Of a stretch of 64,000 bases of DNA, positions 12,763 through 30,215 are shown piece after piece. The stretch is from contig JAFIGS010000005.1 in assembly GCA_017849615.1 (NCBI GenBank), forward strand, positions 111,345-175,344. The letters run 5' to 3'. Both the position numbers and the translations under genes were made by a program. Origin of the DNA: Pseudolabrys sp. GTDB lineage: Bacteria > Pseudomonadota > Alphaproteobacteria > Rhizobiales > Xanthobacteraceae. The notes beneath the pieces were generated by a model. It did no database searches, was not told the DNA's origin, and worked only from the letters and a program-made list of their open reading frames with translations. Position 1 is the stretch's first letter. The number at the start of each line of letters is the position of its first letter.

Positions 12763-13935
12763 TCAAGACCACGGCAGCCGCACCGTCGCGGTCGCATAGG
12801 CGGCGATGCCTTCGCGGCGTCCGGTGAATCCGAGCTGTTCGCTGGTGGTGGCCTTAACCGCGACGCGGTCGATTTCCAATCCGGCGATCCGGGCCACGGT
12901 TTCACGGATGGCGTCGCGGTGCGGACCGATTTTCGGCGCCTCGCAGACGATGGTGAGGTCGAGATGAGCGATGCGGCCGCCGCGCGCCGCGACGCGCTCG
13001 CAGGCGAATCTGAGAAAGCGGTCGGAAGCGGCGCCCTTCCACTGCGGATCGCTCGGCGGAAAGTGCGAGCCGATATCGCCGTCGGCCAGCGCGCCGAGGA
13101 TCGCGTCGGTCAACGCGTGCAGGCCGACATCGGCGTCCGAATGGCCGGTCAGAGCCTGGTCGTGCGCGATGCGCAAGCCGCCGATCATGACATGGTCGCC
13201 GGACCCGAAGGCATGGACGTCGATGCCGGTGCCGGTGCGCACATCGCTCAGGTGGGAAAGCTGCATCGCTTCGGCGCGCACGAAATCCTCCGGGTGGGTG
13301 ATCTTGATGTTGCTGCTCTCGCCGTCGAAGACGCGCACCTGCATGCCGACCCATTCGGCAATGGCGGCATCGTCGGTGAAGTCGCTGCGGCCCTCGCGCG
13401 CGGCGCGGCGATGCGCTTCGAGGATCGGCGCGAAGGCGAAAGCCTGTGGCGTCTGCACCGCACGCAGTCGGGCGCGGTCCAGCGTCTCGCCGACAAAGCC
13501 GTGGCTGTCGATGCCTTTGATCGTGTCGGTGACTGCAAGGCCGGGAATGGCGGCGCCCGTTGCGGCCGTGGCTTCGATGGCCCGCGCGATCAGGGCAGGG
13601 CTGGCAAAGGGCCGGGCGGCATCGTGGATCAGCACGATGTCCGGCGGCTCACCGGCCAGGGCCTCCAGCCCCGCGTGGACGGAGGCTTGACGGGTATCGC
13701 CCCCGGCGACCGGCGCATTGACGGACAGGCCGGCCGCGGCCTCCCGAAACAAGGCCTCATCCCCCGCGCGGATGACCGGCTGAAGGGCCTGGACCAGCCC
13801 ACAGCCGGCAAAGGTCGTCAGACAGCGCCGCAGGACCATCTCGCCGCTAATGGGGCGGAACTGTTTGGGGACCGCCGACCCGGGAGCCCGCGTGCCGCGC
13901 CCGGCGGCGACGATAACGCCCGCGATTTTCGCCAT
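12763..13935 (-). CDS. ispDF: Bifunctional IspD/IspF enzyme of the MEP isoprenoid pathway
   Basis: A 390-residue fusion. Residues 1-225 are 2-C-methyl-D-erythritol 4-phosphate cytidylyltransferase ([12 protein letters not shown], the P-K-Q-F lysine, [10 protein letters not shown]). Residues about 232-390 are 2-C-methyl-D-erythritol 2,4-cyclodiphosphate synthase (GTGIDVHAF with metal ligands D and [46 protein letters not shown]). The fusion brings together non-consecutive steps and is common in alphaproteobacteria. It is divergent from dusB, with 197 bp between. Confidence 0.96.
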
Positions 13936-14079
13936 GGTTATAGGGTCCTGCCCGATTTCTCGCCGCCCGCTTTACCTTGTTCGGCAGGCCCTGCAAACGT
14001 GGGGCGCCGGTTCGTCTCCTCCCGGCTCGATTGCCGCTTTCCGGGGCATGACTTTCATGCGGATATTGCAGTGCAGCAC

Positions 14080-14107
14080 TTGCGCACCGGATCAAACTGG
14101 CTAAACT
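14080..14107 (+). promoter_or_regulatory. Possible sigma-70-type promoter for dusB-ntrBC
   Basis: TTGCGC (14080-14085), 16 bp, TAAACT (14102-14107), 25 bp before the dusB ATG. The fit is moderate and the -10 close to the start leaves a very short leader. I saw no clear -24/-12 sigma-54 site in this gap. Confidence 0.3.
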
Positions 14108-14132
14108 CTATGCAACAGAGGGTGCAGCCTAA

Positions 14133-15185
14133 ATGCTAGGCAGAGGTCCGAAGCCAGACATAAACGGAATTTATGCTAGCTCGCTGACCATCGGCGATGT
14201 GGTTGCGCCCAACCGCGTCATCCTCGCGCCGATGTCCGGCATCACCGACGCGCCGTTCAGGCGCCTGTCGGAACGTCTCGGCGCCGGGCTCGTGGTGTCC
14301 GAGATGACCGCTTGCGCCGGCCTCGCCAAAGGCGAGCGCGAGGCGCAGGCGCGCAGCCGCGGCGCCGGCGTCGCCATCAATGTCGTCCAGCTTGCCGGCT
14401 GCGAGGCGCGCTGGATGGCGGAAGGCGCGGCGATCGCCGAAGCTAATGGCGCCCAGATCATCGACATCAATATGGGCTGCCCGTCCAAGCAGGTGACCAA
14501 TGGCGCGTCCGGTTCGGCGCTGATGCGCGATCTCGATCACGCGCTGACGCTGATCGAAGCCACGGTGAATGCCGTGAAGGTGCCTGTGACGCTGAAGATG
14601 CGGCTCGGCTGGGACGCCGGTTCGATCAATGCGCCCGACCTGGCGCGCCGTGCCGAGAACGCAGGCGTGCGGATGATGACGGTGCATGGCCGCACCCGCT
14701 GCCAGTTCTACACCGGCTCGGCCGATTGGGGCGCCGTACGCGCGGTGAAAGAAGCCGTCACGGTGCCGCTCGTCGTCAATGGCGACATCCGCACCGGCGA
14801 GGATGCACGCGCCGCGCTTGAAGCTTCCGGCGCCGATGCGGTAATGGTCGGCCGCGCCGCGCAAGGCAAGCCTTGGCTGCCGGGGCAGGTGGCCCGCTTT
14901 CTCGCCACCGGCGAAGCCGGCGAGGCGCCATCGCTTCAGGCGCAGCTCGAACTCATCGACGCCCTTTACGCCGAACACATCGAACACCACGGCGTCGCCA
15001 TTGGCCGTCGCCACGCCCGCAAGCATCTCGGCTGGGCGCTGGATGCCGCGGCCGAAACCGCCGGTGTGCCCGACGACCTGCTCAAGACCCATCGCACCCG
15101 CGTGCTCACCACCGAGCAGCCGGACGAAGCGCGCCGCCGTCTGGCCGATGCCTATGACGCATTCGCATGGAGGGCCGCCGCATGA
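14133..15185 (+). CDS. dusB: tRNA-dihydrouridine synthase B (NifR3)
   Basis: FMN-dependent reductase of tRNA D-loop uridines, 350 residues. Landmarks are [14 protein letters not shown], the catalytic cysteine in NMGCPSKQV, the LKMRLGWD lysine, the [14 protein letters not shown] histidine region and [12 protein letters not shown]. The gene is named nifR3 where it precedes ntrBC in rhizobia, and that order is kept here: its stop overlaps the ntrB start (ATGA). Start taken at the ATG 14133. Confidence 0.95.
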
Positions 15186-16330
15186 GCCGCGCCCAGGTCA
15201 AGCCGGCGTCCGCGACCACCATCACCGCGGACGCGATGCTCAACGCGCTGCCGCATCCCGTGATCATGGTCGCGCCGGATGGCCGCATCGCCGATGCCAA
15301 TGTCGCCGCCGAGCAGTTCTTCGAAGCCTCGATCCCGATGCTGCGCCGGAACCTGCTGCGCGAACTGGTGCCGTTCGGCTCGCCTTTGCTGACCCTCGTG
15401 GAGCAGGTGCGCCGCAGCGGCGTCGCCGTGAACGAGTACAAGGTCGATCTCGCCACGCCGCGCAATCCCGGCGAACGGCTGGTCGATCTGCATGTCGCGC
15501 CGCTCACCGAATATCCCGAGCATGTGATCGTCATGCTCCAGGAGCGCACCATCGCCGACAAGATGGACCGCCAGTTGACGCATCGCGGCGCGGCGCGGTC
15601 GGTCATCGCGCTGGCCGCCATGCTGGCGCACGAAATCAAGAATCCGCTATCCGGCATTCGCGGCGCGGCACAGTTGCTCGAGCAATCCGCCGGCGATGAA
15701 GACCGCCAGCTCACGACGCTGATCTGCGACGAGACCGACCGCATCGTGAAGCTGGTCGATCGGATGGAAATCTTCGGCGACGAGCGTCCGGTGGAGCGCG
15801 AACCGGTCAACATCCATGTCGTGCTCGATCATGTGAAGCGGTTGGCGCAGACGGGCTTTGCCCGCCACATCCGCGTCGTCGAGGAGTACGACCCGTCACT
15901 GCCGCCGGTGCTCGCCAATCGACACCAACTCGTTCAGGTCTTTCTCAACCTCGTCAAGAACGCCGCCGAGGCGATCGGCGAGGATGCGAGCGACGGCGAG
16001 ATTCAGCTGACCACGGCCTTCCGTCCGGGCGTTCGCCTTGCCGTGCCCGGCACCAATGCCCGTGTGTCATTGCCGCTCGAATTCTGCGTGCGCGACAACG
16101 GTCCCGGCGTCTCGGACGACCTGATGCCGCATCTGTTCGACCCCTTCGTCACCACCAAGCCGTCCGGAAGCGGGCTGGGTCTCGCGCTGGTGGCGAAGAT
16201 CGTGGGCGATCACGGCGGCATCATCGAGTGTGAATCCCAGCCGCGGAAGACGACCTTCCGTGTGCTGATGCCCATTTACAGCGGCGAGGGCGGCGCAAGC
16301 GACGACGCGCCTTCCTCCCAGACTTCATGA
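15182..16330 (+). CDS. ntrB: Nitrogen regulation sensor histidine kinase NtrB
   Basis: Cytoplasmic NR(II) sensor of 382 residues that phosphorylates NtrC under nitrogen limitation and dephosphorylates it when PII is bound. An N-terminal PAS domain (about 15-125) is followed by HisKA with the phospho-accepting histidine in [19 protein letters not shown], and a HATPase domain (N box [10 protein letters not shown]1 DNGPGVS, G2 [11 protein letters not shown]). The ATG at 15182 overlaps the dusB stop. Its partner ntrC follows 9 bp later but is interrupted by a stop codon. Confidence 0.95.
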
Positions 16331-16339
16331 GGTAGATGC

Positions 16340-17782
<1,443 letters not shown>

Positions 17783-17898
17783 GCCAGTCCCTGGTCGCCC
17801 GGATGGAGCATCACCCGGGTTACAGGCTAATGCTTGTGCCTACTTGCCCCCATAGCGGGCGCCGCTAGATAAGCGGCAGTCCCGCATTGGAAAACGGC

Positions 17899-18927
17899 AT
17901 GGCACAGGCGATCGAACTCGGACTCGATACTTTCGGCGACATCACCGACGGCGCGGACGGCAAGCCGCTCTCCGGGGCGCAGGTCATCCGCGACCTGATC
18001 GAGGAAGCCGTGCTGGCCGATGAGTCCGGCGTCGACTTCATCGGCGTCGGCGAACATCACCGCGCCGACTTCGCCGTCTCGTCACCCGAAATGGTGCTGG
18101 CCACCATCGCCGGCCGCACGCAACGCATCCGCCTCGGCTCGGCCGTCACCGTGCTGTCCTCGGACGATCCGATCCGCGTCTATCAGCGCTTCGCCACGCT
18201 CAACGCCGCTTCGAACGGACGCGCCGAGGTCATGCTCGGGCGCGGCTCGTTCATCGAATCCTTCCCGCTGTTCGGCTTCGACCTCAACAAATACGAGGAG
18301 CTGTTCAACGAGAAGCTCGATCTCTACGCCGCGGTGCTCAAGCAGGAGCCGGTGACGTGGTCGGGCAGCACGCGCCCGCCGCTCAAGAACCAGAGCGTCT
18401 ATCCCAAAATCGACCAGCCATTGACCACGTGGATCGGCGTTGGCGGCACGCCGGAATCGGTGATGCGCGCCGTCCACTACGGTTTCCCGATGATGCTGGC
18501 GATCATCGGCGGCGACCCGAGGCGCTTCGCGCCCTATGCCGATCTCTACCGTCGCTCGCTGGCCGAAGCGGGCAAGCAGCCGCTGCCCGTCGGCGTGCAT
18601 TCGCACGGCTATGTCGCCGACACCGACGCGCAGGCGCGCGAGGAGCTGTTCGCCGACTACAAGCGCATGCGTGACAAGATCGGCGCCGAGCGCGGCTGGC
18701 CGCCCTTCGGCAAGGCCGAATTCGAGCGCGAGATCGAGGGCGGATCGCTCTATGTCGGCTCGCCCGAGACGGTGGCGAAGAAGATCGCCGGCACCATCAA
18801 GGCGCTCGGCGCCCAGCGGTTCGATATGAAGTATTCGGCCGGGCCGCTGTCCCACGCCAAGATGATGCGCTGCATCGAGCTCTACGGCCAAAAGGTCGCG
18901 CCGCTGGTGCGGGAGTTGGTCGGCTAG
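17899..18927 (+). CDS. LLM-class flavin-dependent oxidoreductase
   Basis: Luciferase-like monooxygenase-fold protein of 342 residues. Typical segments are GVGEHHRADFAVSSPEMVLA, RIRLGSAVTVLSSDDPIRVYQ, GRAEVMLGRGSF and a C-terminal GSPETVAKKI. These proteins use reduced flavin (FMN or F420) on diverse substrates; none can be assigned here. The ATG at 17899 (MAQAIELG) is preferred over the TTG at 17887. The gene sits between ntrC and ntrY, a pair often adjacent in rhizobia, so it is an insertion into the nitrogen-control block. Confidence 0.88.
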   Translation: MAQAIELGLDTFGDITDGADGKPLSGAQVIRDLIEEAVLADESGVDFIGVGEHHRADFAVSSPEMVLATIAGRTQRIRLGSAVTVLSSDDPIRVYQRFATLNAASNGRAEVMLGRGSFIESFPLFGFDLNKYEELFNEKLDLYAAVLKQEPVTWSGSTRPPLKNQSVYPKIDQPLTTWIGVGGTPESVMRAVHYGFPMMLAIIGGDPRRFAPYADLYRRSLAEAGKQPLPVGVHSHGYVADTDAQAREELFADYKRMRDKIGAERGWPPFGKAEFEREIEGGSLYVGSPETVAKKIAGTIKALGAQRFDMKYSAGPLSHAKMMRCIELYGQKVAPLVRELVG

Positions 18928-19085
18928 CACCGCCGGCGCCGCGACCTCATCCTGCGACCGCTTGGGTTGTCGATCGCGTCAGCGGCGGCGGACAGCGGCA
19001 ACCGCAAAGGCGCGCGCCCCTCCGTTTGTGAGACGTCCGGCATAGCCATCAGCGGGGTGAAACCGGGGGAGGGAGCGCCGCAGTC

Positions 19086-19116
19086 TTGTCGCAATTCGGC
19101 AACATTGTTGTATAAA
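19086..19116 (+). promoter_or_regulatory. Possible promoter upstream of ntrYX
   Basis: TTGTCG (19086-19091) and TATAAA (19111-19116) with a 19-bp spacer, in a 278-bp gap between the LLM gene and ntrY. The -10 lies in a local AT-rich patch that stands out from its surroundings. The spacer is longer than ideal, so this is tentative. Confidence 0.3.
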
Positions 19117-19205
19117 AGCATCAGCACCGCGGAGATTCTGCCGGTGCGCCGGACATTTGCCATGTCCGCCCGACGTAAAGCCGATCCACAGGGCCTGACG
19201 ATCTT

Positions 19206-21485
19206 ATGAGTTTCGACCAGGCCACTTCGGCTGAACTGACAGGTACGGCTTCGCCGTCCCGGCGGGAAGGCAGCCGCATCCTCGGGCCCATCGCCGTCGG
19301 TCTGGCGCTGCTGTCGGCCTTCGCCACCTTCGTCGTCCTGGCCGACCTGACCCCGATTGCGCCGACGCACTACGTCGTCGTCTCGCTGCTGCTCGCCAAT
19401 GCCGCGACGGTCATTCTGCTGCTGGTCATCATCGTCCGGGAAATCTGGCAGGTGGTGCAGGCCCGGCGCTCGGGACGCGCCGCCGCGCGGCTTCACGTCC
19501 GCATCGTCGGTTTGTTCTCGATCATCGCCGCCGCCCCGGCCATTCTGGTCGCCATTGTCGCCAGCGTCACGCTCGATCGCGGCCTCGACCGCCTGTTCTC
19601 CAACCGCACCCGGGCCGCCATCGAGAATTCGATCGTCGTCGCCGAAGCCTATCTGCGCGACCATGCGCAGATCGTCCGCTCGGACATCATGGTGATGGCC
19701 TTCGACCTGGCCCGCGCCAAACAGGCCGTTGACGAGAGTCCCGAGCAGCTCAAGCAGTTCCTGACCTATCAGGCCGCCGTGCGCGGGCTCGCCTCCGCGA
19801 TCCTGTTCGACGGCGATCTCAAGGAGGTGGCGCGCGCCGACGTTCGCGTGAACCAGACCTTTGCCCTGCCGCCCCGCGAGGCGCTCTCGACCATCAGCGA
19901 CAAGGAACCGCAGCTCGTGCTGCTGCCGGACACCAATTACGTCGCGGCGGTCATCAAGCTGCAGAACTTCGACGACCGGTTTCTTTATGTGACCCGGCTG
20001 CTCGACCCGCGCGTCGTGCCGCAATTGCGCGAGACGCGGGCCAGCGTCTCCGAATACATCGCCATCGAGCAGCGGCGCTTCGGCGTCCAGGTCGCTTTCG
20101 GCCTGATGTACACCGTCATCGCGCTCATCGTGCTGCTTTCGGCGGTATGGATGGGCTTCAGCTTCGCCAACAAGCTGGTGGCGCCGATCCGCCGCCTGAT
20201 CGGCGCGGCCAACGCCGTGTCCGAAGGCAATCTCTATATCCGCGTGCCGGTCCGGCAGTCGGAAGGCGATCTCGCCCATCTCGGCGAAACCTTCAACCGC
20301 ATGACGCAGGAGCTGCGCACGCAGCGCGACGATCTGGTCCGTGCCCGCGACGTCATCGACACCCGCCGCATCTTCACCGAGGCCGTGCTGGCGGGCGCCA
20401 GCGCCGGCGTCATCGGCGTCGATACTTTCGACAATGTCGCCATTCTCAACCGCTCGGCCGAAAAGCTGATCGGCTATACCGAGGCGCAGGCCGTTGGCAA
20501 GCCGCTCAACGAGGTCTTTCCCGAACTGGCGGGCATCATGCTGGCGGCCAAGCATGGCGGCCGCACGCAGGATCAGGTCACGATCAACCGGGCAGGGCGC
20601 GAGCGCAATCTGTCGGTCCGCGTCACCAGCGAACGATCCGGCGCCACCAACCATGGCTATGTCATCACGCTGGACGACATCACCGAGCTCGTCACCGCGC
20701 AGCGCTCCTCCGCCTGGGCCGATATCGCGCGGCGCATCGCGCACGAGATCAAGAACCCGCTGACGCCGATCCAGCTCTCGGCCGAACGCCTGCGCCGCAA
20801 ATACGGCAAGGTCATCGGCGAAGACAGCGGCGGCGTGTTTCAGCAATGCACCGACACCATCATCCGGCAGGTGGACGACATCCGGCAGATGGTGGACGAG
20901 TTCTCCAAATTCGCGCGCATGCCCAAGCCGGTCATCGTCGGCGAGGACGTCGCCGACGCGGTGCGTCAGGCGGTGTTCCTGCAGCGCGTCGGCAATGCCG
21001 ATATCGATATTTCAGCCGAAATCGCCGAAGAACCGCTGCACGCCCAGTTCGACCGCCGCCTGATTTCGCAGGCGCTCACCAACATCATCAAGAACGCCAC
21101 CGAGGCCGTCGCCGCCGTGCCGGATACCGAGCGCGGCGAAGGCTGGAAGGGCACGATCCGGGTCTTTGCCGGCCGCGAAGGCGAGAACATCGTCATCGAT
21201 GTGGTCGACAACGGCATCGGTCTGCCGCGCGAGAACCGCAACCGCCTGATGGAGCCCTATGTGACGACGCGCGAGAAGGGCACCGGCCTTGGTCTCGCCA
21301 TCGTCGGGCGCATTCTGGAGGAGCACGGCGGCGCGCTCGAATTGCGCGACGCCGCCGACAAGATACCGGGTCAGCGCGGCGCCTGGATGCGGATGCGATT
21401 CTCCGCCACGGCAAAGCCCGGCGCGACGCCCCCGGAGACCACCGAGGTCGCGTCTGCCGATCCGGTAAAAACGACAAGCGAGTAA
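19206..21485 (+). CDS. ntrY: Nitrogen regulation sensor histidine kinase NtrY
   Basis: Membrane sensor kinase of 759 residues. Several N-terminal transmembrane segments (first two about residues 23-45 and 55-75), a periplasmic or extracytoplasmic sensor region, a further membrane segment near 300, a HAMP domain, a PAS domain (about 390-500), then HisKA with the histidine in [18 protein letters not shown], and a HATPase domain (NIIKNATEAV, DNGIGLP, GTGLGLAIVGRI). It phosphorylates NtrX and has been tied to nitrogen and redox responses in alphaproteobacteria. It is followed 6 bp later by ntrX. Confidence 0.95.
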   Translation: MSFDQATSAELTGTASPSRREGSRILGPIAVGLALLSAFATFVVLADLTPIAPTHYVVVSLLLANAATVILLLVIIVREIWQVVQARRSGRAAARLHVRIVGLFSIIAAAPAILVAIVASVTLDRGLDRLFSNRTRAAIENSIVVAEAYLRDHAQIVRSDIMVMAFDLARAKQAVDESPEQLKQFLTYQAAVRGLASAILFDGDLKEVARADVRVNQTFALPPREALSTISDKEPQLVLLPDTNYVAAVIKLQNFDDRFLYVTRLLDPRVVPQLRETRASVSEYIAIEQRRFGVQVAFGLMYTVIALIVLLSAVWMGFSFANKLVAPIRRLIGAANAVSEGNLYIRVPVRQSEGDLAHLGETFNRMTQELRTQRDDLVRARDVIDTRRIFTEAVLAGASAGVIGVDTFDNVAILNRSAEKLIGYTEAQAVGKPLNEVFPELAGIMLAAKHGGRTQDQVTINRAGRERNLSVRVTSERSGATNHGYVITLDDITELVTAQRSSAWADIARRIAHEIKNPLTPIQLSAERLRRKYGKVIGEDSGGVFQQCTDTIIRQVDDIRQMVDEFSKFARMPKPVIVGEDVADAVRQAVFLQRVGNADIDISAEIAEEPLHAQFDRRLISQALTNIIKNATEAVAAVPDTERGEGWKGTIRVFAGREGENIVIDVVDNGIGLPRENRNRLMEPYVTTREKGTGLGLAIVGRILEEHGGALELRDAADKIPGQRGAWMRMRFSATAKPGATPPETTEVASADPVKTTSE

Positions 21486-21491
21486 CAGCGC

Positions 21492-22859
21492 ATGGCAGCA
21501 GAAATTCTCATCGTTGACGATGAAGCCGATATCCGCGATCTCGTGGCGGGCATCCTGGAGGATGAAGGCTTCATCGCGCGCACGGCCCGCAACAGCGACG
21601 ACGCCATCGCCTCGATCGTGACGCGGCGGCCGAACCTGATCTTCCTCGACATCTGGCTGCAGGGCTCCAAGCTCGACGGCTTGCAGTTGCTGACCATCCT
21701 CAAGGGCGAGCATCCCGAGATTCCGATTGTGATGATCTCGGGCCATGGCAATATCGAAACCGCGGTCGCGGCCATCAAGCAGGGCGCCTACGATTTCATC
21801 GAAAAGCCGTTCAAGGCCGACCGCCTCGTGCTGGTCGCCGAACGCGCGCTGGAAACGTCGCGGCTCAAACGCGAAGTGCGGCAGCTCAAACAGCTTGCGC
21901 CGTCGCCTTCGACACTCATCGGGCGCTCGGCCGCGATGTCGAGCCTGCGCCAGTCGATCGACCGCGTCGCTCCGACCAACAGCCGCGTGCTCATCGTCGG
22001 CCCCTCGGGCGCCGGCAAGGAACTGGCCGCGCGCACCATGCACGAGCTGTCGCAGCGCACCGGTGGGCCGTTCATAGTCATCAACGCCGCGGCGATCACG
22101 CCCGAGCGCATGGAAACCGAACTATTCGGCGTCGAAGCCAATGGCGCCGAGCCGCGCAAGACCGGGGCGCTCGAAGAGGCGCATGGCGGCACCTTGTTCA
22201 TCGACGACGTCGCCGACCTGCCGCGCGAGACCCAGAACAAGATTCTGCGCGTGCTGGTCGATCAGACCTTCAGCCGCGTCGGCGGTTCGTCAAAGGTCGC
22301 GGTCGACGTCCGCATCGTCGCCTCGACCGCGCGCAATCTGGAATCCGCCATCGCGCAGGGCCAGTTCCGCGAGGACCTCTATCATCGCCTGTCGGTGGTG
22401 CCGGTGCGCGTACCGCCTTTGTCGGAACGCCGCGAGGATATCCCCGAGTTGATCGACTACTTCATGGAGCACATCTCGCAATCGACTGGTCTGCCCAGAC
22501 GCCGGATCGGCGAGGACGCCATGGCGGTGCTGCAATCGCATAACTGGCCGGGCAATGTGCGCCAGCTCCGCAACAACATCGAGCGCCTGATGATCCTGGC
22601 CGGCGGCGATCCGGACGCGGTGATCGATGCCTCGATGCTGCCGCAGGATGTCGGCTCAATGGTGCCGGCGATGCCGAACGGCAATGGCGGCGAGCAATTG
22701 ATGGGCCTGCCGCTGCGCGATGCCCGCGAGGTATTCGAGCGCGAGTATCTGGTGGCTCAGATTTCCCGCTTCGGCGGCAACATCTCGCGCACGGCCGAAT
22801 TCGTCGGCATGGAGCGCTCGGCACTGCACCGCAAGCTCAAGGCGCTGGGGATTGGATGA
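21492..22859 (+). CDS. ntrX: NtrX response regulator
   Basis: A 455-residue regulator with receiver (IVDDEADIRDLVAGIL; phospho-acceptor Asp in IFLDIWL), AAA+ domain (Walker A GPSGAGKELAA, Walker B GGTLFIDD) and a C-terminal Fis-type helix-turn-helix (ISRTAEFVGMERSALHRKL). In place of the sigma-54 contacting GAFTGA loop it has a shortened GVEANGAEPRKTGALEEA segment, a known trait of NtrX, so direct activation of sigma-54 RNA polymerase is unlikely. It pairs with NtrY upstream. Confidence 0.95.
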   Translation: MAAEILIVDDEADIRDLVAGILEDEGFIARTARNSDDAIASIVTRRPNLIFLDIWLQGSKLDGLQLLTILKGEHPEIPIVMISGHGNIETAVAAIKQGAYDFIEKPFKADRLVLVAERALETSRLKREVRQLKQLAPSPSTLIGRSAAMSSLRQSIDRVAPTNSRVLIVGPSGAGKELAARTMHELSQRTGGPFIVINAAAITPERMETELFGVEANGAEPRKTGALEEAHGGTLFIDDVADLPRETQNKILRVLVDQTFSRVGGSSKVAVDVRIVASTARNLESAIAQGQFREDLYHRLSVVPVRVPPLSERREDIPELIDYFMEHISQSTGLPRRRIGEDAMAVLQSHNWPGNVRQLRNNIERLMILAGGDPDAVIDASMLPQDVGSMVPAMPNGNGGEQLMGLPLRDAREVFEREYLVAQISRFGGNISRTAEFVGMERSALHRKLKALGIG

Positions 22860-22883
22860 TGATGCGTTTGACAGCCTCTCTCG

Positions 22884-22980
22884 GCCTCATCCTGAGGAGC
22901 GCTCCGCAGGAGCGCGTCTCGAAGGACGAGGCCGCCCCATCCTTCGAGACGCCCGCTGCGCGGGCTCCTCAGGATGAGGC
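22884..22980 (+). repeat. Palindromic intergenic repeat
   Basis: About 97 bp between ntrX and dat. The left arm GCCTCATCCTGAGGAGC pairs with GCTCCTCAGGATGAGGC at the right, and CGTCTCGAAGGA pairs with TCCTTCGAGACG inside. It shares ATCCTGAGG and CTTCGAG strings with the repeats near 61.1 and 61.8 kb, so it belongs to the same family. Confidence 0.82.
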
Positions 22981-23005
22981 GGAAAGAGCTTCGGAAGAGT
23001 AGCCC

Positions 23006-23863
23006 ATGTCCCGCATCGCCTACGTCAACGGCCGCTACATCCCGCACGCCGAAGCCGGCGTGTCCATCGACGATCGCGGCTTCCAGTTCGCCGACAGCGT
23101 CTATGAGGTCTGCGAAGTCATCGGCGGCAGACTGGTGGACGAACGCCGCCACATGGCGCGCCTGCAGCGCTCGCTCGATCGCCTTGCCATGGCGCGGCCG
23201 CTGACCGAGCGCGCGATGGCCGTCGTCATGCGCGAAACCATCCGCCGCAACCGGGTCACCGACGGCGTCGTCTATGTGCAGGTCTCGCGCGGCCAGATGC
23301 GCCGCGACTTCCCGTTTCCACCGGACGGCACACCCGCGAGCCTCGTCGTCACCGCGCGCAACAACGACCTTGCCAAGATCGAGGCGCGCGCCGCCAAGGG
23401 CGTCGCCGTGGTCACCATGCCCGACGAGCGCTGGCGCCATGTCGATATCAAGTCGGTGGCGCTGCTGCCGAACGTGCTGGCGAAGCAGGCCGCGCGCGAA
23501 CAGGGCGCGCAGGAAGCCTGGCTGGTGGACGCCAAGGGCTATGTCACCGAAGGCGCGTCCTCGACGGCCTGGATCGTCACGCGCGACGGGGTGCTGGTGA
23601 CGCGGCCGCTCAAGGGCGACATCCTGCCCGGCGTGACCCGCTCGGTCGTGCTCGATCTGGTGGCGAAGCAGGGGCTGCGCTTCGAGGAGCGCGCCTTCAC
23701 CGTGGACGAGGCCTATGCGGCGCGGGAGGCCTTCATCACCTCGGCCAGCCAATCGGTCATGCCGGTGACCCAGATCGACGGCCGCCCCGTCGGCAACGGC
23801 GCGCCGGGCCTGACCGCAAGCGGCCTGCGCCGCGACTACCACAGCCAGGCCGAATTCACCTGA
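23006..23863 (+). CDS. dat: D-amino-acid aminotransferase (class IV)
   Basis: PLP-dependent class IV transaminase of 285 residues interconverting D-amino acids and 2-oxo acids, used for D-alanine/D-glutamate supply. It starts with the typical AYVNGRYIPHAEAGVSIDDRGFQF, carries the PLP lysine in HVDIKSVALLPNVLAKQ and the cofactor loop YVTEGASSTAWIV, and ends with SASQSVMPVTQIDG. The gene commonly follows ntrX and precedes hfq in Hyphomicrobiales. Confidence 0.93.
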   Translation: MSRIAYVNGRYIPHAEAGVSIDDRGFQFADSVYEVCEVIGGRLVDERRHMARLQRSLDRLAMARPLTERAMAVVMRETIRRNRVTDGVVYVQVSRGQMRRDFPFPPDGTPASLVVTARNNDLAKIEARAAKGVAVVTMPDERWRHVDIKSVALLPNVLAKQAAREQGAQEAWLVDAKGYVTEGASSTAWIVTRDGVLVTRPLKGDILPGVTRSVVLDLVAKQGLRFEERAFTVDEAYAAREAFITSASQSVMPVTQIDGRPVGNGAPGLTASGLRRDYHSQAEFT

Positions 23864-23870
23864 CGCCCTC

Positions 23871-23925
23871 AAATCGCCCCAAAATGCGCCAAAACAGTCC
23901 ATATTTCAGGGGCTTGGGGCGATTT
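23871..23925 (+). repeat. Inverted repeat between dat and hfq
   Basis: Perfect 10-bp arms AAATCGCCCC (23871-23880) and GGGGCGATTT (23916-23925) separated by 35 bp. It begins just after the dat stop. It could act as a weak terminator hairpin or protein site; no T-run follows, so rho-independent termination is not supported. Confidence 0.5.
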
Positions 23926-24084
23926 ATCCAATGTTCCGCTTGCGCGAATAGGCAGGGTGCCATCTAATACATGTTCCCGGTCCCCGGATTCCGCTCCTGA
24001 ATGGGGAGAGCGGCGACATGCGAGGGCTAAAGGGCAACGATTGTCTCGCGCGTTAAGATGCGGGCTAAAAAATGGACCACGGCC

Positions 24085-24345
24085 ATGGCCGCCGAACGAG
24101 CTCAGAACCTTCAAGACACGTTTCTCAACCACGTCCGCAAAGCGAAAATTCCGCTGACCATCTTTCTGGTCAACGGCGTGAAACTGCAGGGCGTCGTCAC
24201 CTGGTTCGATAATTTTTGCGTCCTGTTGCGTCGGGATGGGCACTCGCAGCTTGTCTACAAGCACGCCATCTCGACCATCATGCCCGGACATCCGATCCAG
24301 TTGTTCGAAGGTGGCGAAGAGCCGCTGGCGCCGGAAAAGGCATAA
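24085..24345 (+). CDS. hfq: RNA chaperone Hfq
   Basis: Sm-like hexameric RNA chaperone of 86 residues pairing small RNAs with mRNAs. The Sm1 region ([33 protein letters not shown] is split here: [12 protein letters not shown], then [12 protein letters not shown]) and the Sm2 motif (VYKHAISTI) are complete. The ATG at 24085 ([11 protein letters not shown]) matches the usual rhizobial N-terminus; an ATG at 24058 would add nine basic residues. It is followed by a palindromic repeat and hflX, the conserved hfq-hflX pair. Confidence 0.97.
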
Positions 24346-24395
24346 GCGCATGATCGCGAAAAGCGGTCTTCCGGTTTTCGGGGAAGATCATGCGC
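24346..24395 (+). repeat. Short palindromic intergenic repeat, copy 2
   Basis: A 50-bp element between hfq and hflX, starting right after the hfq stop, with terminal repeats GCGCATGATC and GATCATGCGC. It shares these and the interior GGTTTTCGG with the copy at 2431-2479. Both copies lie between co-directional genes of one operon. Confidence 0.85.
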
Positions 24396-24410
24396 CAGAA
24401 AAGATAGCTT

Positions 24411-25754
24411 TTGGAAATACGTGATCGCGACAAGAGTGCGGACCTGCTGACTCCCTCCGGGTCGGGCAGCGGGCGTGCGCTCGTCATCGAGCCCTATCTG
24501 CGGGGTCATGGCGGCGCGTCCGCCGACACGCGCACGCCGGACGCACGCCTCGAGGAGGCGATGGGGCTGGCGCGCGCCATCGACCTTGAGGTCGTCGAAG
24601 GCGGCCTGGTGCCGCTGCAGGCGGTCAAACCCGCGACCTATATCGGCTCCGGCAAGGTCGACGAGATCGCCGGGCTGGTGAAGGGCCATGACGCGTCCGT
24701 GGTCATCATGGATTGCCCGATTTCCCCGGTGCAGCAGAAGAACCTCGAGAAGGCCTGGAACGCCAAGGTCATCGACCGCACCGGCCTCATTCTCGAAATC
24801 TTCGGCCGCCGCGCCCGTACCCGCGAAGGCGCGCTGCAGGTCGAGCACGCGCATCTGACCTATCAGAAGGGTCGGCTGGTCCGCTCCTGGACGCACTTGG
24901 AGCGCCAACGCGGCGGCTTCGGCTTTCTCGGCGGCCCCGGCGAAACCCAGATCGAGGCCGACCGACGCATGCTGTCGGAACGCATCGGCAAGATCGAAAG
25001 CGATCTGGAGAAGGTCAAGCGCACCCGCAAGCTGCATCGCGAGAGCCGCAAGCGCGTGCCTTATCCGATCGTGGCGCTGGTCGGTTACACCAACGCCGGC
25101 AAGTCCACGCTGTTCAACCGCATGACCGCGGCGTCCGTGCTGTCGGCCGACATGCTGTTCGCCACGCTCGATCCGACCTTGCGCTCGATCGACCTGCCGC
25201 ACGGCACCCGCATCATCCTGTCCGACACCGTGGGCTTCATCTCCGATCTGCCGACGCAACTGGTCGCGGCCTTCCGCGCCACGCTGGAAGAGGTGATCGA
25301 GGCCGACATCATCCTCCATGTCCGCGACATGTCGCACGAGGACACCGGCGCGCAATCGGCCGACGTCGCCAAGGTGCTCGGCGAACTTGGCATCGAGCCG
25401 ACCGACCGCCGCATCATCGAGGTCTGGAACAAGATCGACGCCCTCGACGCCGACGGCCGCGAGCGCATCCATAACCTCGCCGCCCGGCAGGCGCCGGAGC
25501 GTGCGCCGATCATCGTCTCGGCGTTGACCGGGGAGGGCATCGACGACCTCACCGGCGCCATCGAGAACCGCCTCGGCGAAAGCCGGCAGACGCTGTCGCT
25601 GACGCTCGATGCCTCCGACGGCGCGGGGCTGAGCTGGCTCTACCGCCACACCGAAGTGCTCGACAAAACCACGGATGACGAGGGCCATGTCTCGGTCACC
25701 GTCCGCGCCACGCCCGACAAGGCCGGCCAGGTGAGGGCGAAATTCGCGCTGTAG
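24411..25754 (+). CDS. hflX: Ribosome-associated GTPase HflX
   Basis: GTPase that splits stalled or heat-damaged 70S ribosomes, 447 residues. An N-terminal HflX domain (PATYIGSGKVDEIAG), a coiled coil (about 165-195), and the G domain: G1 GYTNAGKSTLFN, G3 DTVGFISDLP, G4 NKID. The start is taken as TTG at 24411 (MEIRDRDK), since no ATG lies near the N-terminus and the sequence just upstream is the palindromic repeat. Linked to hfq as in many proteobacteria. Confidence 0.95.
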   Translation: MEIRDRDKSADLLTPSGSGSGRALVIEPYLRGHGGASADTRTPDARLEEAMGLARAIDLEVVEGGLVPLQAVKPATYIGSGKVDEIAGLVKGHDASVVIMDCPISPVQQKNLEKAWNAKVIDRTGLILEIFGRRARTREGALQVEHAHLTYQKGRLVRSWTHLERQRGGFGFLGGPGETQIEADRRMLSERIGKIESDLEKVKRTRKLHRESRKRVPYPIVALVGYTNAGKSTLFNRMTAASVLSADMLFATLDPTLRSIDLPHGTRIILSDTVGFISDLPTQLVAAFRATLEEVIEADIILHVRDMSHEDTGAQSADVAKVLGELGIEPTDRRIIEVWNKIDALDADGRERIHNLAARQAPERAPIIVSALTGEGIDDLTGAIENRLGESRQTLSLTLDASDGAGLSWLYRHTEVLDKTTDDEGHVSVTVRATPDKAGQVRAKFAL

Positions 25755-25866
25755 CTGACGCTCAAGCCGCCTCACCGCATCCATCATCAAACCATCATGA
25801 AACCCGGCGCAAAACTGCGCCCGTCCGGCGTTTGAAGTGCGCCGCACGTTCCGGAATTAGAGCTCA

Positions 25867-27486
25867 ATGATCCGCCTCGACAACATCAGCAAGCAGAACG
25901 GCCACCAGATCCTGTTCATCGAAGCCTCGGCCGCGCTGCACCGCGCCGAGAAGGTCGGTCTCGTCGGTCCCAACGGCGCCGGCAAATCGACGCTGTTTCG
26001 CATGATCACCGGGCAGGAAGCGCCGGACGAGGGGCAAGTGGTGGTCGATCGCGGCATCACCATCGGCTATTTCAGCCAGGACGTCGGCGACATGTCCGGC
26101 CGCAGCGCTGTCGCCGAAGTCATGGACGGCGTCGGCCCGGTCAGCGAGGTCGCCGCCGAACTGAAAGAACTGGAAGCGGCGATGGCCGATCCGGATCGTG
26201 CCGACGAGATGGAAGCCATCATCGAACGCTACGGCGAGGTGCAGCAGCGCTTCTCCGAACTCGACGGCTATGCGCTCGATGCGCGCGCCCGTGAGGTGCT
26301 GGCGGGCTTGAGCTTCACGCAGGAGATGATGGACGGCGATGTCGGCAAATTGTCCGGCGGCTGGAAGATGCGTGTCGCGCTGGCGCGCATCCTGTTGATG
26401 AAGCCCGACGCCATGCTGCTCGACGAACCGTCGAACCATCTCGATATCGAGAGCCTGATCTGGCTGGAGCAGTTCCTCAAGGGCTATGACGGCATGCTGA
26501 TGATGACCTCGCATGACCGCGAGTTCATGAACCGCATCGTCAACAAGATCGTCGAGATCGACGGCGGCGCGCTCACCGCCTATTCCGGCGACTACGAATT
26601 CTACGAGCAGCAGCGCGCGTTGAGCGAAAAGCAGCAGCAGGCGCAGTTCGAGCGCCAGCAGGCCATGCTGGCCAAGGAAATCCGCTTCATCGAGCGCTTC
26701 AAGGCGAGGGCCTCGCACGCCGCGCAGGTGCAGAGCCGGGTCAAGAAGCTCGACAAGATTGAGCGCGTCGAGCCGCCGCGAAGGCGCCAGAGCGTCAGCT
26801 TCGATTTTCCGCCGGCGCCGCGCTCCGGCGAGGACGTCGCCATCCTCAAGGACGTCGCCAAGGCCTATGGCAGCCGCACGATCTATGACAGCCTCGATTT
26901 CTCCATCCGCCGCCTCGACCGCTGGTGCGTCATGGGCGTCAACGGCGCCGGCAAATCGACCTTGCTCAAGCTGATCGCCGGCACCACCGAGCCGGACGCC
27001 GGCACGGTGTCGGTCGGCGGCAGCGTCAGGATGGGCTATTTCGCCCAGCACGCCATGGATTTGCTCGACGGCGAGCGCACGGTGTTCGAGCAGCTCGAAT
27101 ACACGTTCCCGCAGGCCAGCATCGGCTCGCTGCGCTCGCTGGCCGGCTGTTTCGGCTTCTCCGGCGACGACGTCGAAAAGAAGTGCCGCGTTCTGTCCGG
27201 CGGCGAGAAGGCGCGCCTCGTGATGGCGATCATGCTGTACGACCCGCCGAATTTCCTGGTGCTCGACGAGCCGACCAACCATCTCGACATGGCGACCAAG
27301 GAAATGCTGATCGAGGCTTTGGCGAAATACGAGGGCACCATGCTGTTCGTGTCGCACGACCGGCATTTCCTCGCCGCGCTGTCGAACCGCGTCCTCGAAC
27401 TGACGCCCGACGGCATCCACGCCTATGGCGGCGGCTACACCGAATACGTCGCCCGCACCGGCTATGAGGCGCCGGGTATCCTGTAG
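25867..27486 (+). CDS. ABC-F family ATP-binding protein
   Basis: Soluble twin ABC ATPase of 539 residues without membrane segments. Two nucleotide-binding domains: Walker A GPNGAGKSTLF and GVNGAGKSTLL, signatures LSGGWKMRVALARIL and LSGGEKARLVMAIML, Walker B with LLDEPSNHLD and VLDEPTNHLD. A charged linker (about 250-300) joins them. Members act on the ribosome E site in translation or antibiotic protection; the subfamily cannot be fixed here. The stop codon lies inside a palindromic repeat (27483-27561). Confidence 0.92.
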   Translation: MIRLDNISKQNGHQILFIEASAALHRAEKVGLVGPNGAGKSTLFRMITGQEAPDEGQVVVDRGITIGYFSQDVGDMSGRSAVAEVMDGVGPVSEVAAELKELEAAMADPDRADEMEAIIERYGEVQQRFSELDGYALDARAREVLAGLSFTQEMMDGDVGKLSGGWKMRVALARILLMKPDAMLLDEPSNHLDIESLIWLEQFLKGYDGMLMMTSHDREFMNRIVNKIVEIDGGALTAYSGDYEFYEQQRALSEKQQQAQFERQQAMLAKEIRFIERFKARASHAAQVQSRVKKLDKIERVEPPRRRQSVSFDFPPAPRSGEDVAILKDVAKAYGSRTIYDSLDFSIRRLDRWCVMGVNGAGKSTLLKLIAGTTEPDAGTVSVGGSVRMGYFAQHAMDLLDGERTVFEQLEYTFPQASIGSLRSLAGCFGFSGDDVEKKCRVLSGGEKARLVMAIMLYDPPNFLVLDEPTNHLDMATKEMLIEALAKYEGTMLFVSHDRHFLAALSNRVLELTPDGIHAYGGGYTEYVARTGYEAPGIL

Positions 27487-27561
27487 CCCGGATGAGCGCA
27501 GCGAAATCCGGGGACGCCGCATCATCCATTCCCGGGTTGCGCTTCGCTCCACCCGGGCTAC
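27483..27561 (+). repeat. Palindromic intergenic repeat overlapping the ABC-F stop codon
   Basis: GTAGCCCG (27483-27490) pairs with CGGGCTAC (27554-27561), with an imperfect interior of CGCAGCGAAATCCGGG-type arms. The first arm supplies the TAG stop of the ABC-F gene. The other end lies 3 bp from the mazG stop, so the element fills the whole convergent junction and may act as a two-way terminator (inference). Confidence 0.75.
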
Positions 27562-27563
27562 GG

Positions 27564-28373
27564 CTACTCCCGCTCCGCCATCTTCGCCTGATCCCACAGC
27601 GTGTCCATCTCGGCGAGGCTCGCGTCTTGGGGTTTCTTGCCTTGCGCGGCCAGCGCGGCCTCGATGGCGGTGAAGCGCCGTTCGAACTTGGCGTTGGTCG
27701 TGCGCAAAATGGCCTCCGGATCGGCGTCCAGATGCCGCGCCAGATTGACCACGGCGAACAGCAGATCGCCGACCTCGGCGGCGGCCTGGTTTTTCTCGGC
27801 GCGATCGAGCTCGGCCTCGATCTCGTCGGCTTCCTCACGGATCTTGGCCAGCACCGCGCGCGGATCGTTCCAGTCGAAACCGACGCGGCCGGCCTTCTGC
27901 TGCAGCTTCAAGGCGCGGGTCAACGCGGGCAGGGCAACCGGCACCCCGTCCAGCGCGCTCGGGACCTTCGGAGGATGCCGTTTCGCGCGCTCGGCCTTTT
28001 CCTCCGCCTTGATGCGTTCCCACTGGCCCTCGACCGCCTTGGTGTCCTGACCGCCGGCATCGCCGAACACATGCGGATGCCGCCGGATCATCTTGGACGT
28101 CACGGCCTCGACGACGCCGCCGAAATCGAACGCGCCTTGCTCCTGCGCCATCCGCGCGTGAAACACGACCTGCAGCAGCAGGTCGCCAAGCTCGTCGCGC
28201 AAGTCCGGAAGATCGCCACGCTGGATGGCGTCGGCGACCTCGTAGGCTTCCTCGATCGTGTACGGCGCGATGGTCGCGAAGTTCTGCTCGAGGTCCCACG
28301 GGCAGCCGGTCACCGGCGTGCGCAGCGCGGCCATGATCTCGATCAGACGGGCAGTGTCGCGGGACGGCTTCAC
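27564..28373 (-). CDS. mazG: Nucleoside triphosphate pyrophosphohydrolase MazG
   Basis: House-cleaning NTP pyrophosphatase of 269 residues with two MazG domains. The first has CPWDLEQNFATIAPYTIEEAYEVADAI and the metal-binding LRDELGDLLLQVVFH; the second has the EIEAELDRAEK and EVGDLLFAVVNLARH segments. The start is GTG at 28373. It is convergent with the ABC-F gene. It lies on the - strand although it is left of the dif candidate. Confidence 0.93.
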   Translation of the reverse strand: MKPSRDTARLIEIMAALRTPVTGCPWDLEQNFATIAPYTIEEAYEVADAIQRGDLPDLRDELGDLLLQVVFHARMAQEQGAFDFGGVVEAVTSKMIRRHPHVFGDAGGQDTKAVEGQWERIKAEEKAERAKRHPPKVPSALDGVPVALPALTRALKLQQKAGRVGFDWNDPRAVLAKIREEADEIEAELDRAEKNQAAAEVGDLLFAVVNLARHLDADPEAILRTTNAKFERRFTAIEAALAAQGKKPQDASLAEMDTLWDQAKMAERE

Positions 28374-28497
28374 GGGCTTACTCGGGCTGGGAGGTCGGGT
28401 CGGACGGCAAGCCGAGAACCTAGCGGCGCAGGCCGACCATGGCGCGGCAGGCCGCGGGCTTATCCAGAGACTTCGCCGGGCCCGCCGGCCTATACTC

Positions 28498-28525
28498 GAT
28501 TCGCATAAGACATATTATGGAATAT
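28498..28525 (+). other. Candidate chromosomal dif site (XerC/XerD recombination site)
   Basis: A 28-bp sequence with the 11-6-11 architecture of dif: XerC-type arm GATTCGCATAA, centre GACATA, XerD-type arm TTATGGAATAT. The inner half-site cores CGCATAA and TTATG are those of known dif sites (for example E. coli arms GGTGCGCATAA and TTATGTTAAAT). It lies in a 241-bp AT-rich gap between mazG and the MBL gene, near the point where coding strands switch from mainly + to mainly -. GGGCAGGG at 27927 and CCCTGCCC at 28955 flank it in the polarity expected of FtsK-orienting sequences. Confidence 0.72.
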
Positions 28526-28614
28526 CTTGATATGTCCGGATTGGTCAAAGGCCGATGCGATACTTCAGGATTGCTCCACATTTTATTGAAATCATGCGGC
28601 TTTCCGTGGCGTCT

Positions 28615-29412
28615 TCAGGCATCGAACTGCATGCCGTCATAGGCCGGCTCGATGCCGTCCGGCAGCGTCCGCTTGAGCGTCTGGTAGTCCAGATCGGTAT
28701 GCATGTCGGTCAGGATGGCGCGCTTCGGCTTGATGCGCGCGATCCATTGCAGCGACTCGTCGAGATTCATGTGGCTCGGATGCGGCGTCTTGCGCAGCGC
28801 GTCCACGATCCAGACGTCGAGACCGTCGACCGCCGCGAGGCTGTCCGGCGGCAGGCGCTTGAGGTCGGTCGAGTAGGCCACATCGCCGAAGCGGAAGCCG
28901 AACGAAACGATGTCGCCGTGGTCCTGCAGGAACGGCAAAAGCTCGATAGGGCCTCCCTGCCCGTCGATCGTCACCGGCTTGCCGGGCGTCAGGCGGTGGT
29001 CGGCCATGATCGGCGGATAGCTGCTGCCGGCCGGCGTCCGGAAGCAGTAGCCGAAGCGGGCGTGCAGGTCGGCCGCGGCGGCTTCGCCCATGTAGACGTC
29101 GACGCGGCGCTTGTGCAGCACGAACATCGGCCGCAGGTCGTCCAGGCCGTGGGTGTGATCGGCGTGTTCGTGGGTGATGAGAACGCCGTCGATCCAGTCG
29201 ACATTGGCCTCGATCAGCTGTTCGCGGATATCGGGGCCGGCGTCGACCAGAACGCGCGTAACCTTGCCCGGCGCGGCCATGCGCTCGACCAGCAGCGCAC
29301 AGCGGCGGCGGCGGTTCCTGGGCTCGTTCGGATCGCAATCGCCCCAGCCCAGAGCGACGCGCGGCACGCCCATGGACGAGCCGCATCCCAGAATGGTGAA
29401 ACGCAGACTCAT
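28615..29412 (-). CDS. MBL-fold metallo-hydrolase, PhnP-like
   Basis: A 265-residue metallo-beta-lactamase-fold protein. The metal-binding HEHADHTHGLDDLRPM motif is complete and further histidine/aspartate ligands are in the DHGDIVSFGF and ILTDMHTDLDY segments. The N-terminus LRFTILGCGSSMGVPR is that of the PhnP/phosphoribosyl cyclic phosphodiesterase group. No phn operon is nearby, so the substrate is open. The start ATG at 29412 overlaps the tatD stop by 4 bp, suggesting metG-tatD-MBL cotranscription. Confidence 0.88.
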   Translation of the reverse strand: MSLRFTILGCGSSMGVPRVALGWGDCDPNEPRNRRRRCALLVERMAAPGKVTRVLVDAGPDIREQLIEANVDWIDGVLITHEHADHTHGLDDLRPMFVLHKRRVDVYMGEAAAADLHARFGYCFRTPAGSSYPPIMADHRLTPGKPVTIDGQGGPIELLPFLQDHGDIVSFGFRFGDVAYSTDLKRLPPDSLAAVDGLDVWIVDALRKTPHPSHMNLDESLQWIARIKPKRAILTDMHTDLDYQTLKRTLPDGIEPAYDGMQFDA

Positions 29413-30215
29413 CCGGCCTTCCTGACGTCGCCCGCGAGTTCGCGCGGCACTTTGCCGAACAGCCGGAAGAAGTTTTCCGTGGTCTGGCGTGCGATTTCGG
29501 CTTCGGATACGCCGCGGGTCTCGGCCAGCACCTTGGCGGTGTTGACGACGTAAGCTGGCTCGTTGCGTTTGCCGCGATACGGGATCGGCGCCAGGAACGG
29601 CGCGTCGGTCTCGACCAGAATGCGGTCGGCCGGCAAGTCGCGCGCGATCTCGCGCAGCGCTTCGCCGTTCCTGAAAGTAATGATGCCGGTGAAGCCGATA
29701 TAAAGCCCGAGTTCGACCGCCTTGAACGCCAGCTCGCGGCCGCCGGTATAGCAATGCAGAACGGCCGGGAAGGCGCCCTTCCCGATTTCCTCCTCGAGGA
29801 TCGCCGCCGTATCGGCGTCGGCTTCGCGGGTATGGATCACAAGCGGCAGCCCCGTCTCGCGCGATGCCTTGATGTGCTCGCGAAAGCCCCATGCCTGATC
29901 GGCGCGCGGCGACTTGTCGTAGTGATAGTCGAGTCCGGCCTCGCCGATGGCGACGATCTTGGGGTGCTGGCTGAGCCGCACCAGTTCGGCGGCATCGATA
30001 TCCAGCTCTTCCTGAGCATTGTGCGGATGGGTCCCGACCGAGGCGAAAACGTCGGGGAAACTCTCTGCGACAGCAAGCACTTGCTGGAGCTTCTTCACCC
30101 GGGTTGAGATGGTCACCATCCGCCCGATCCCGGCCGCCCGCGCCCGCTCGACGATCTGGTCGAGCTCAGGCGCGAATTCCGGGAAATCGAGGTGGCAGTG
30201 GCTGTCGACCAGCAT
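29409..30215 (-). CDS. tatD: TatD family metal-dependent hydrolase
   Basis: TIM-barrel metallo-hydrolase of 268 residues related to TatD DNase. Metal ligands: DSHCHLDF at the N-terminus, GEAGLDYHY, VIHTREAD, LHCYTGG, and the TDAPFLAP aspartate near residue 205. Family members act as 3'-5' exonucleases on damaged DNA. It lies downstream of metG, as in many bacteria. Confidence 0.93.
   Translation of the reverse strand: MLVDSHCHLDFPEFAPELDQIVERARAAGIGRMVTISTRVKKLQQVLAVAESFPDVFASVGTHPHNAQEELDIDAAELVRLSQHPKIVAIGEAGLDYHYDKSPRADQAWGFREHIKASRETGLPLVIHTREADADTAAILEEEIGKGAFPAVLHCYTGGRELAFKAVELGLYIGFTGIITFRNGEALREIARDLPADRILVETDAPFLAPIPYRGKRNEPAYVVNTAKVLAETRGVSEAEIARQTTENFFRLFGKVPRELAGDVRKAG

Follow-up and report, generated by a model that had tools for sequence, protein, structure and literature searches.

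A predicted chromosomal dif site of published type in the terminus region of a Pseudolabrys draft genome

The 28-mer at 28498-28525 of the analyzed stretch of DNA (64 kb, hereafter the window) is very probably, at about 97%, the chromosomal dif site of an alphaproteobacterium. This reading is supported because the site is single copy in the draft assembly, lies at a switch in the polarity of KOPS octamers, recurs in relatives, is nearly identical to a published dif, and has the recombinases encoded in the same genome. The window covers positions 111345-175344 of contig C16 (175 kb), on which the site falls at 139842-139869. Letter for letter, the sequence agrees with the 11-6-11 layout and the inner cores CGCATAA and TTATG given in the preliminary description of this DNA (Table 1). 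The site is intergenic, in a 241-base gap between two genes of the - strand, with the start of mazG at 28373 and the end of the MBL-fold hydrolase gene at 28615. An open reading frame on the + strand that overlaps the dif (27492-28508) was rejected as spurious, since it runs antisense over mazG. A promoter scan gave a single weak promoter-like match, on the - strand and extending into the right end of the dif (0.3 expected), and a search for a terminator at the dif found none.

Table 1. Features of the dif locus (window coordinates), followed by dif-like sites on tailed-phage contigs that have a terminase gene within about 1.2 kb (coordinates of each viral contig).
Feature	Position	Strand	Basis or details
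Weakly conserved outer flank, XerC side	28488-28497	+	A at -5 and C at -2 in the 84-site alignment
Predicted XerC-binding arm GATTCGCATAA	28498-28508	+	Sequence; same as printed USDA 110 dif arm; named by homology to published dif
Central hexamer GACATA	28509-28514	+	Sequence
Predicted XerD-binding arm TTATGGAATAT	28515-28525	+	Sequence; same as printed USDA 110 dif arm
KOPS-like GGGNAGGG, left of dif	13593-27934	+	Starts 13593, 19066, 20590, 25530, 27927
KOPS-like GGGNAGGG, right of dif	28955-55705	-	Starts 28955, 29776, 33072, 33962, 49012, 54343, 55698
mazG, nucleoside triphosphate pyrophosphohydrolase, left of dif	27564-28373	-	NCBIfam NF007113, 363.7 bits (cut-off 208)
Presumed MBL-fold hydrolase gene, right of dif	28615-29412	-	Start codon inferred; frame with ITHEHADH; homologues beside tatD in relatives
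TatD-family nuclease	29409-30215	-	TIGR00010, 280.7 bits (cut-off 206)
Dif-like site, L295	7292-7319		
Dif-like site, L306	597-624		
Dif-like site, L309	9493-9520		
Dif-like site, L307	10318-10345		
Dif-like site, L302	4213-4238		Contig end cuts the site
Dif-like site, L310	2621-2648		
Dif-like site, L298	4503-4530		
Dif-like site, L294	8540-8567		
Dif-like site, L297	8129-8156		
Dif-like site, L303	10164-10191		

The genome is assigned in GTDB to the Xanthobacteraceae, which we take to be the family that includes Bradyrhizobium. The closest published comparison is the dif of Bradyrhizobium japonicum USDA 110, printed as GATTCGCATAAGGTATATTATGGAATAT in Table 1 of Carnoy and Roten 2009 (PMC2731167). 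It shares 26 of 28 bases with our site, including the whole of both 11-base arms, and is likewise intergenic, whereas its centre reads GGTATA instead of GACATA, a difference of two bases. The same table shows that the dif of Escherichia coli K12 has the 11-6-11 layout and the inner cores CGCATAA and TTATG, but differs in the XerD arm (TTATGTTAAAT instead of TTATGGAATAT), in the centre (TGTATA) and in the start of the XerC arm (GGTG there, GATT here). Since both arms are identical to those of the published USDA 110 dif, we rejected the idea that the site is anything novel. It is a further predicted dif of an already published type, sound and ordinary.

The 28-mer is unique within the window when up to 3 mismatches are allowed (0 expected). 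In the 4,396,131 bases and 35 contigs of the genome there is a single exact copy of the core, CGCATAA-N6-TTATG, which agrees with the single copy per chromosome anticipated for a dif in the preliminary description; the count covers the assembled sequence of a draft that is 99.99% complete. The reversed control core has no exact match in the same genome. When one mismatch is tolerated there are 8 matches for the core and 13 for the reversed control, so that only the exact match stands out, and the 7 one-mismatch cores found elsewhere were rejected as better dif candidates on the same grounds. Three of these 7 places, C13:359-376, C21:102104-102121 and C33:127355-127372 of this genome (G000), carry one identical 18-mer, CGCGTAAACGCGCTTATG; two of the three copies are near contig ends and the sequence is perhaps a repeat.

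The site is widespread among relatives. A 22-base version representative of the family, TCGCATAANNNATATTATGGAA, was found in 332 of 391 family genomes, a set in which one genus label (g23) has a large share, and in 27 of the 28 genomes of the same genus (own genome included). By eye it is single copy in all matching genomes but one, and its reversed control gave zero matches. The exception, G157, has two copies of the strict pattern (C1:1143714 and C5:10342), perhaps one on the chromosome and one on a second replicon. The other 59 of the 391 genomes lack the strict 22-base pattern; by eye they comprise every genome of the genus labels g13, g22 and g37, and the whole of g21 except for three. 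Sites with other centres occur in some g21 genomes, and a lineage-specific form of dif is possible in these four genera. Looser searches gave similar pictures: the bare 18-base core occurs in 165 of 198 genomes, with less specificity (several copies in some genomes and some control matches), and a relaxed pattern searched across the order occurs in 91 of 120.

We aligned 95 sites, 55 from loci and 40 hand-picked from the lists of pattern matches, of which 84 remained, our own included, after dropping those at least 70% alike over 148 bases. Since the sites had been selected by TCGCATAA-N6-TTATGGA, and the hand-picked 40 also by their dif-like centres, conservation of those columns proves nothing. 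The columns of the 28-mer outside this selection (2, 3, 27 and 28) carry 1.57-1.70 bits in the 84 non-redundant sites, against a mean of 0.05 bit and a maximum of 0.29 in columns that lie over 12 bases away from the dif, which we regard as background. The most variable bases of the 28-mer among relatives are the second and third of the central hexamer (positions 13-14). These results bear on whether the 28-mer could be a palindrome that arose by chance in a short space between genes, as its location between two - strand genes might suggest. We consider this practically negligible: none is expected in the window, the reversed core is missing from the genome, and hundreds of relatives carry the site amid diverged flanks. 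The presence of the pattern in most of the family, and its conserved columns set against background flanks, refute it.

The orientation of the octamer GGGNAGGG sets the site apart within its contig. All 12 copies in the window have the expected polarity (5/5 on the + strand to the left, 7/7 on the - strand to the right). The eight positions listed in the preliminary description were all correct, polarity included, and the four that had been missed (25530 on +; 29776, 54343 and 55698 on -) follow the same rule. Over the whole of C16, 28/28 octamers point to the dif (21/21 left, 7/7 right), and the switch falls between 139271 and 140299, a gap of 1.03 kb that encloses it. When nine motifs were compared on C16, only GGGNAGGG was perfectly polar; the eight other G-rich motifs were not, e.g. 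11/15 for GGGANGGG, and mostly lean the same way, with exceptions, as expected from strand bias. Of the 5206 seven-base words that occur 20 times or more on C16, one that is unrelated, TCAAGAC, is likewise perfectly polar about the dif (21/21, with 19/19 on + to the left and 2/2 on - to the right), so that polarity by itself does not single out KOPS. Another 7-mer, AGCAGGG, is nearly polar about the dif on this contig (33/34).

We also sampled 1,533,884 bases from 33 contigs, all those of the genome except C7 and C16. The samples of 13 of these contigs (C2, C6, C11, C13, C14, C20, C22, C23, C26, C27, C30, C34 and C35) contain KOPS on both strands. None of the 33, as sampled with gaps, shows at least two octamers on + followed only by at least two on -; the samples of C6 have one on + and then two on -, and among the first 100 matches listed, which run from C1 to part of C9, the same contig has one on + followed by five on -. 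Because gaps separate the samples, these data fall short of proving that the genome has a single KOPS switch. The octamer behaves similarly in two genomes of the same genus. In G031, 34/35 copies have the right polarity (16 stretches of 20 kb along a contig of 3.45 Mb). In G167, 36/41 fit two arms meeting at the dif (20 stretches of 20 kb along a contig of 5.59 Mb), the arms being 1.06-3.79 Mb and the rest, with a far boundary near 3.8-4.06 Mb that was set afterwards from the sign change. In Azorhizobium caulinodans (PMC2443382) the same octamer preferentially points to the dif at the terminus; that result concerns a closed whole chromosome, whereas ours concerns one contig and samples.

GC skew is a poor guide at this scale. 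For a left arm with a leading top strand the skew should be positive, yet 11 of the 14 windows of 2 kb to the left of the dif are negative, the wrong sign, and from 28001 on 9 of 18 are positive. We therefore rejected skew as a dif locator, as it is uninformative in the window and on the contig. The mean skew on C16 is 0.001 per base to the left of the site and -0.0045 to the right, and the strongest split into two segments is at 170300, near the end of the contig. The preliminary description had called for a GC-skew inversion near 28.5 kb and named its lack as grounds against the dif; we found no local sign change at the site. At the megabase scale the relatives are more regular. In G167 the skew is positive in 10/10 stretches outside 1.06-3.79 Mb and negative in 9/10 inside, and in G031 it is positive in 8/9 stretches on the left and negative in 6/7 on the right.

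Genes change strand close to the site. According to an automatic GC3-based picker, which makes some wrong calls (e.g. 28555..29553 on +), 22/26 genes are on the + strand to the left of the dif and 28/35 on the - strand to the right. The coding-strand switch proposed earlier thus holds for the two sides, but it is not at the dif itself: it lies about 1 kb to the left, between an ABC-F gene (25867-27486, +) and mazG, because mazG is already on the - strand. The suggestion of a probable replication terminus fared similarly, as KOPS and the megabase-scale skew of relatives argue for a terminus region whereas the local skew shows no switch. The dif may be real and the forks meet tens of kb away, in which case it would be a focus of segregation and dimer resolution; we give this an even chance, and it is compatible with the dif reading. 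Cumulative skew on C16 reaches its maximum at 103610, which is 36 kb left of the dif; this offset is poorly measured as the skew is weak and C16 ends 35 kb to the right of the site. In USDA 110 the dif and the skew maximum are 102,766 bp apart (PMC2731167), and PMC13342612 and PMC3025954 separate the dif from the point of termination, which it need not be. We conclude that the site marks the terminus region, and that placing the meeting of the forks at the dif itself would go beyond the evidence.

The site is flanked by housekeeping genes: hfq, hflX, the ABC-F gene and mazG on one side and the MBL-fold gene, tatD and metG on the other. The product of 28615-29412 was assigned to the MBL-fold family by eye, and we take it to be such a hydrolase. 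Synteny was analyzed in loci from named genomes centred on tatD, retaining the best 80 of 551 matches. Among these best 80, the closest TatD match is that of a Proteobacteria bacterium MAG (93%), and the next four (79-82%) come from Pseudolabrys sp., an uncultured Rhizobiales bacterium and Rhizobium sp. Q54. The dif core is present in 26 of the 80 loci. In all 13 core-bearing loci where mazG is within reach the dif lies between the MBL-fold gene and mazG; mazG lies beyond reach in the remaining 13, as it does in all 54 loci that lack the core. The mazG-dif-MBL neighbourhood is therefore kept across related genomes.

This setting disfavours the view that the 28-mer is not the chromosome's own but arrived with a phage, a plasmid or a genomic island, as a dif-like site for attachment or resolution. 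Sites of this kind do exist, as 22 stretches of IMG/VR contain the 22-base pattern and eight plasmid records of Bradyrhizobium or Nitrobacter contain weakly similar sites (E 0.008 to 0.3), but the genome has only one exact core, the flanks are housekeeping genes, the position between mazG and the MBL-fold gene is kept in 13/13 relatives, and the site sits at the KOPS switch. We consider a mobile origin highly improbable and retain the chromosomal dif.

The mobile elements deserve description in their own right. Three sets of the viral stretches are repeats, as judged by identical flanks, which leaves 18 distinct ones. In 10 of these 18, a scan of 30 flanking frames, of which 11 had no family match, placed a terminase gene no more than about 1.2 kb from the site, and in three within 25 bases (Table 1); several contigs (e.g. 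L305 and L311) had no scanned flanking gene. The commonest centre among viral sites is CGTATA, in 10/22 stretches and 6/18 distinct ones, which is outside the 12 commonest host sites. The 5.8-kb viral contig L296 has a dif-like site at 2271-2298; an integrase-family gene lies about 135 bases away and a gene for a major head protein is close by. The scanned flanks of L296 contain these two genes in place of a terminase. A search of phage records with the dif gave two short matches at the level of chance (E 0.4). A paper on the Rhodobacter phage Jorvik (PMC10589892) reportedly uses the terms dif and XerCD. It is possible that the dif-like sites of phages are Xer-dependent attachment or resolution sites near packaging genes. 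The plasmid matches come from seven records of Bradyrhizobium and one of Nitrobacter (85-90% identity), and secondary replicons with such sites may use the same system.

The alignment also revealed weak conservation just outside the 28-mer. Numbering the first dif base as 1 and the base before it as 0, position -5 is A in 61/84 sites (0.70 bit), -2 is C in 46/84 (0.57 bit) and +30 is T in 59/84 (0.79 bit), all above the background maximum of 0.29. On the XerD side, 28526-28530 is weakly conserved among relatives. The flanks were tested again in the second batch, of which 34 of the 40 sites were used, as six repeat loci of the first batch. In these 34 sites the background maximum is 0.42, which -5 (0.70 bit) and +30 (1.32 bit) surpass; -2, at 0.38 bit, falls short and was not reproduced. 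Carnoy and Roten report high variability outside the 28-mer (PMC2731167), and a literature search for such a conserved flank gave no paper that by its terms deals with it. We tentatively propose that the dif extends here beyond 28 bp, so that two outer bases, an A located six bases ahead of the XerC arm in a loose ccAtAtcC and a T located two bases beyond the XerD arm, would help to assemble or steer the Xer complex; and, as a separate matter, that tailed phages with this type of dif near their terminase genes would use the host XerCD for integration or genome resolution. Taken jointly, the two proposals are doubtful.

The genome encodes the proteins that a dif site requires. An XerC-like protein is encoded on C20, with TIGR02224 as its best family (309.9 bits, missing the cut-off of 335.15). 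An XerD-like protein on C27 passes NF001399 (354.1 bits, cut-off 279) and misses TIGR02225 (317.3 bits, cut-off 329.6). Both end with HxxR...H...Y, as tyrosine recombinases do. There is one FtsK gamma domain, also on C27 (PF09397, 94.4 bits, cut-off 30.6). From the known biology of such systems we infer binding, FtsK direction and recombination as follows. XerC would bind 28498-28508 and XerD 28515-28525. In a dimer of fused sister chromosomes, septal FtsK would track along the DNA, in a direction set by GGGNAGGG, to the dif, where its gamma domain would activate XerD. Strand exchange by the two recombinases about the 6-base centre would then separate the dimer.

These results add little to the publications of 2009 and 2011. 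For this organism, they fix the predicted point of dimer resolution in a draft genome, orient contig C16, and provide a marker for the terminus region.
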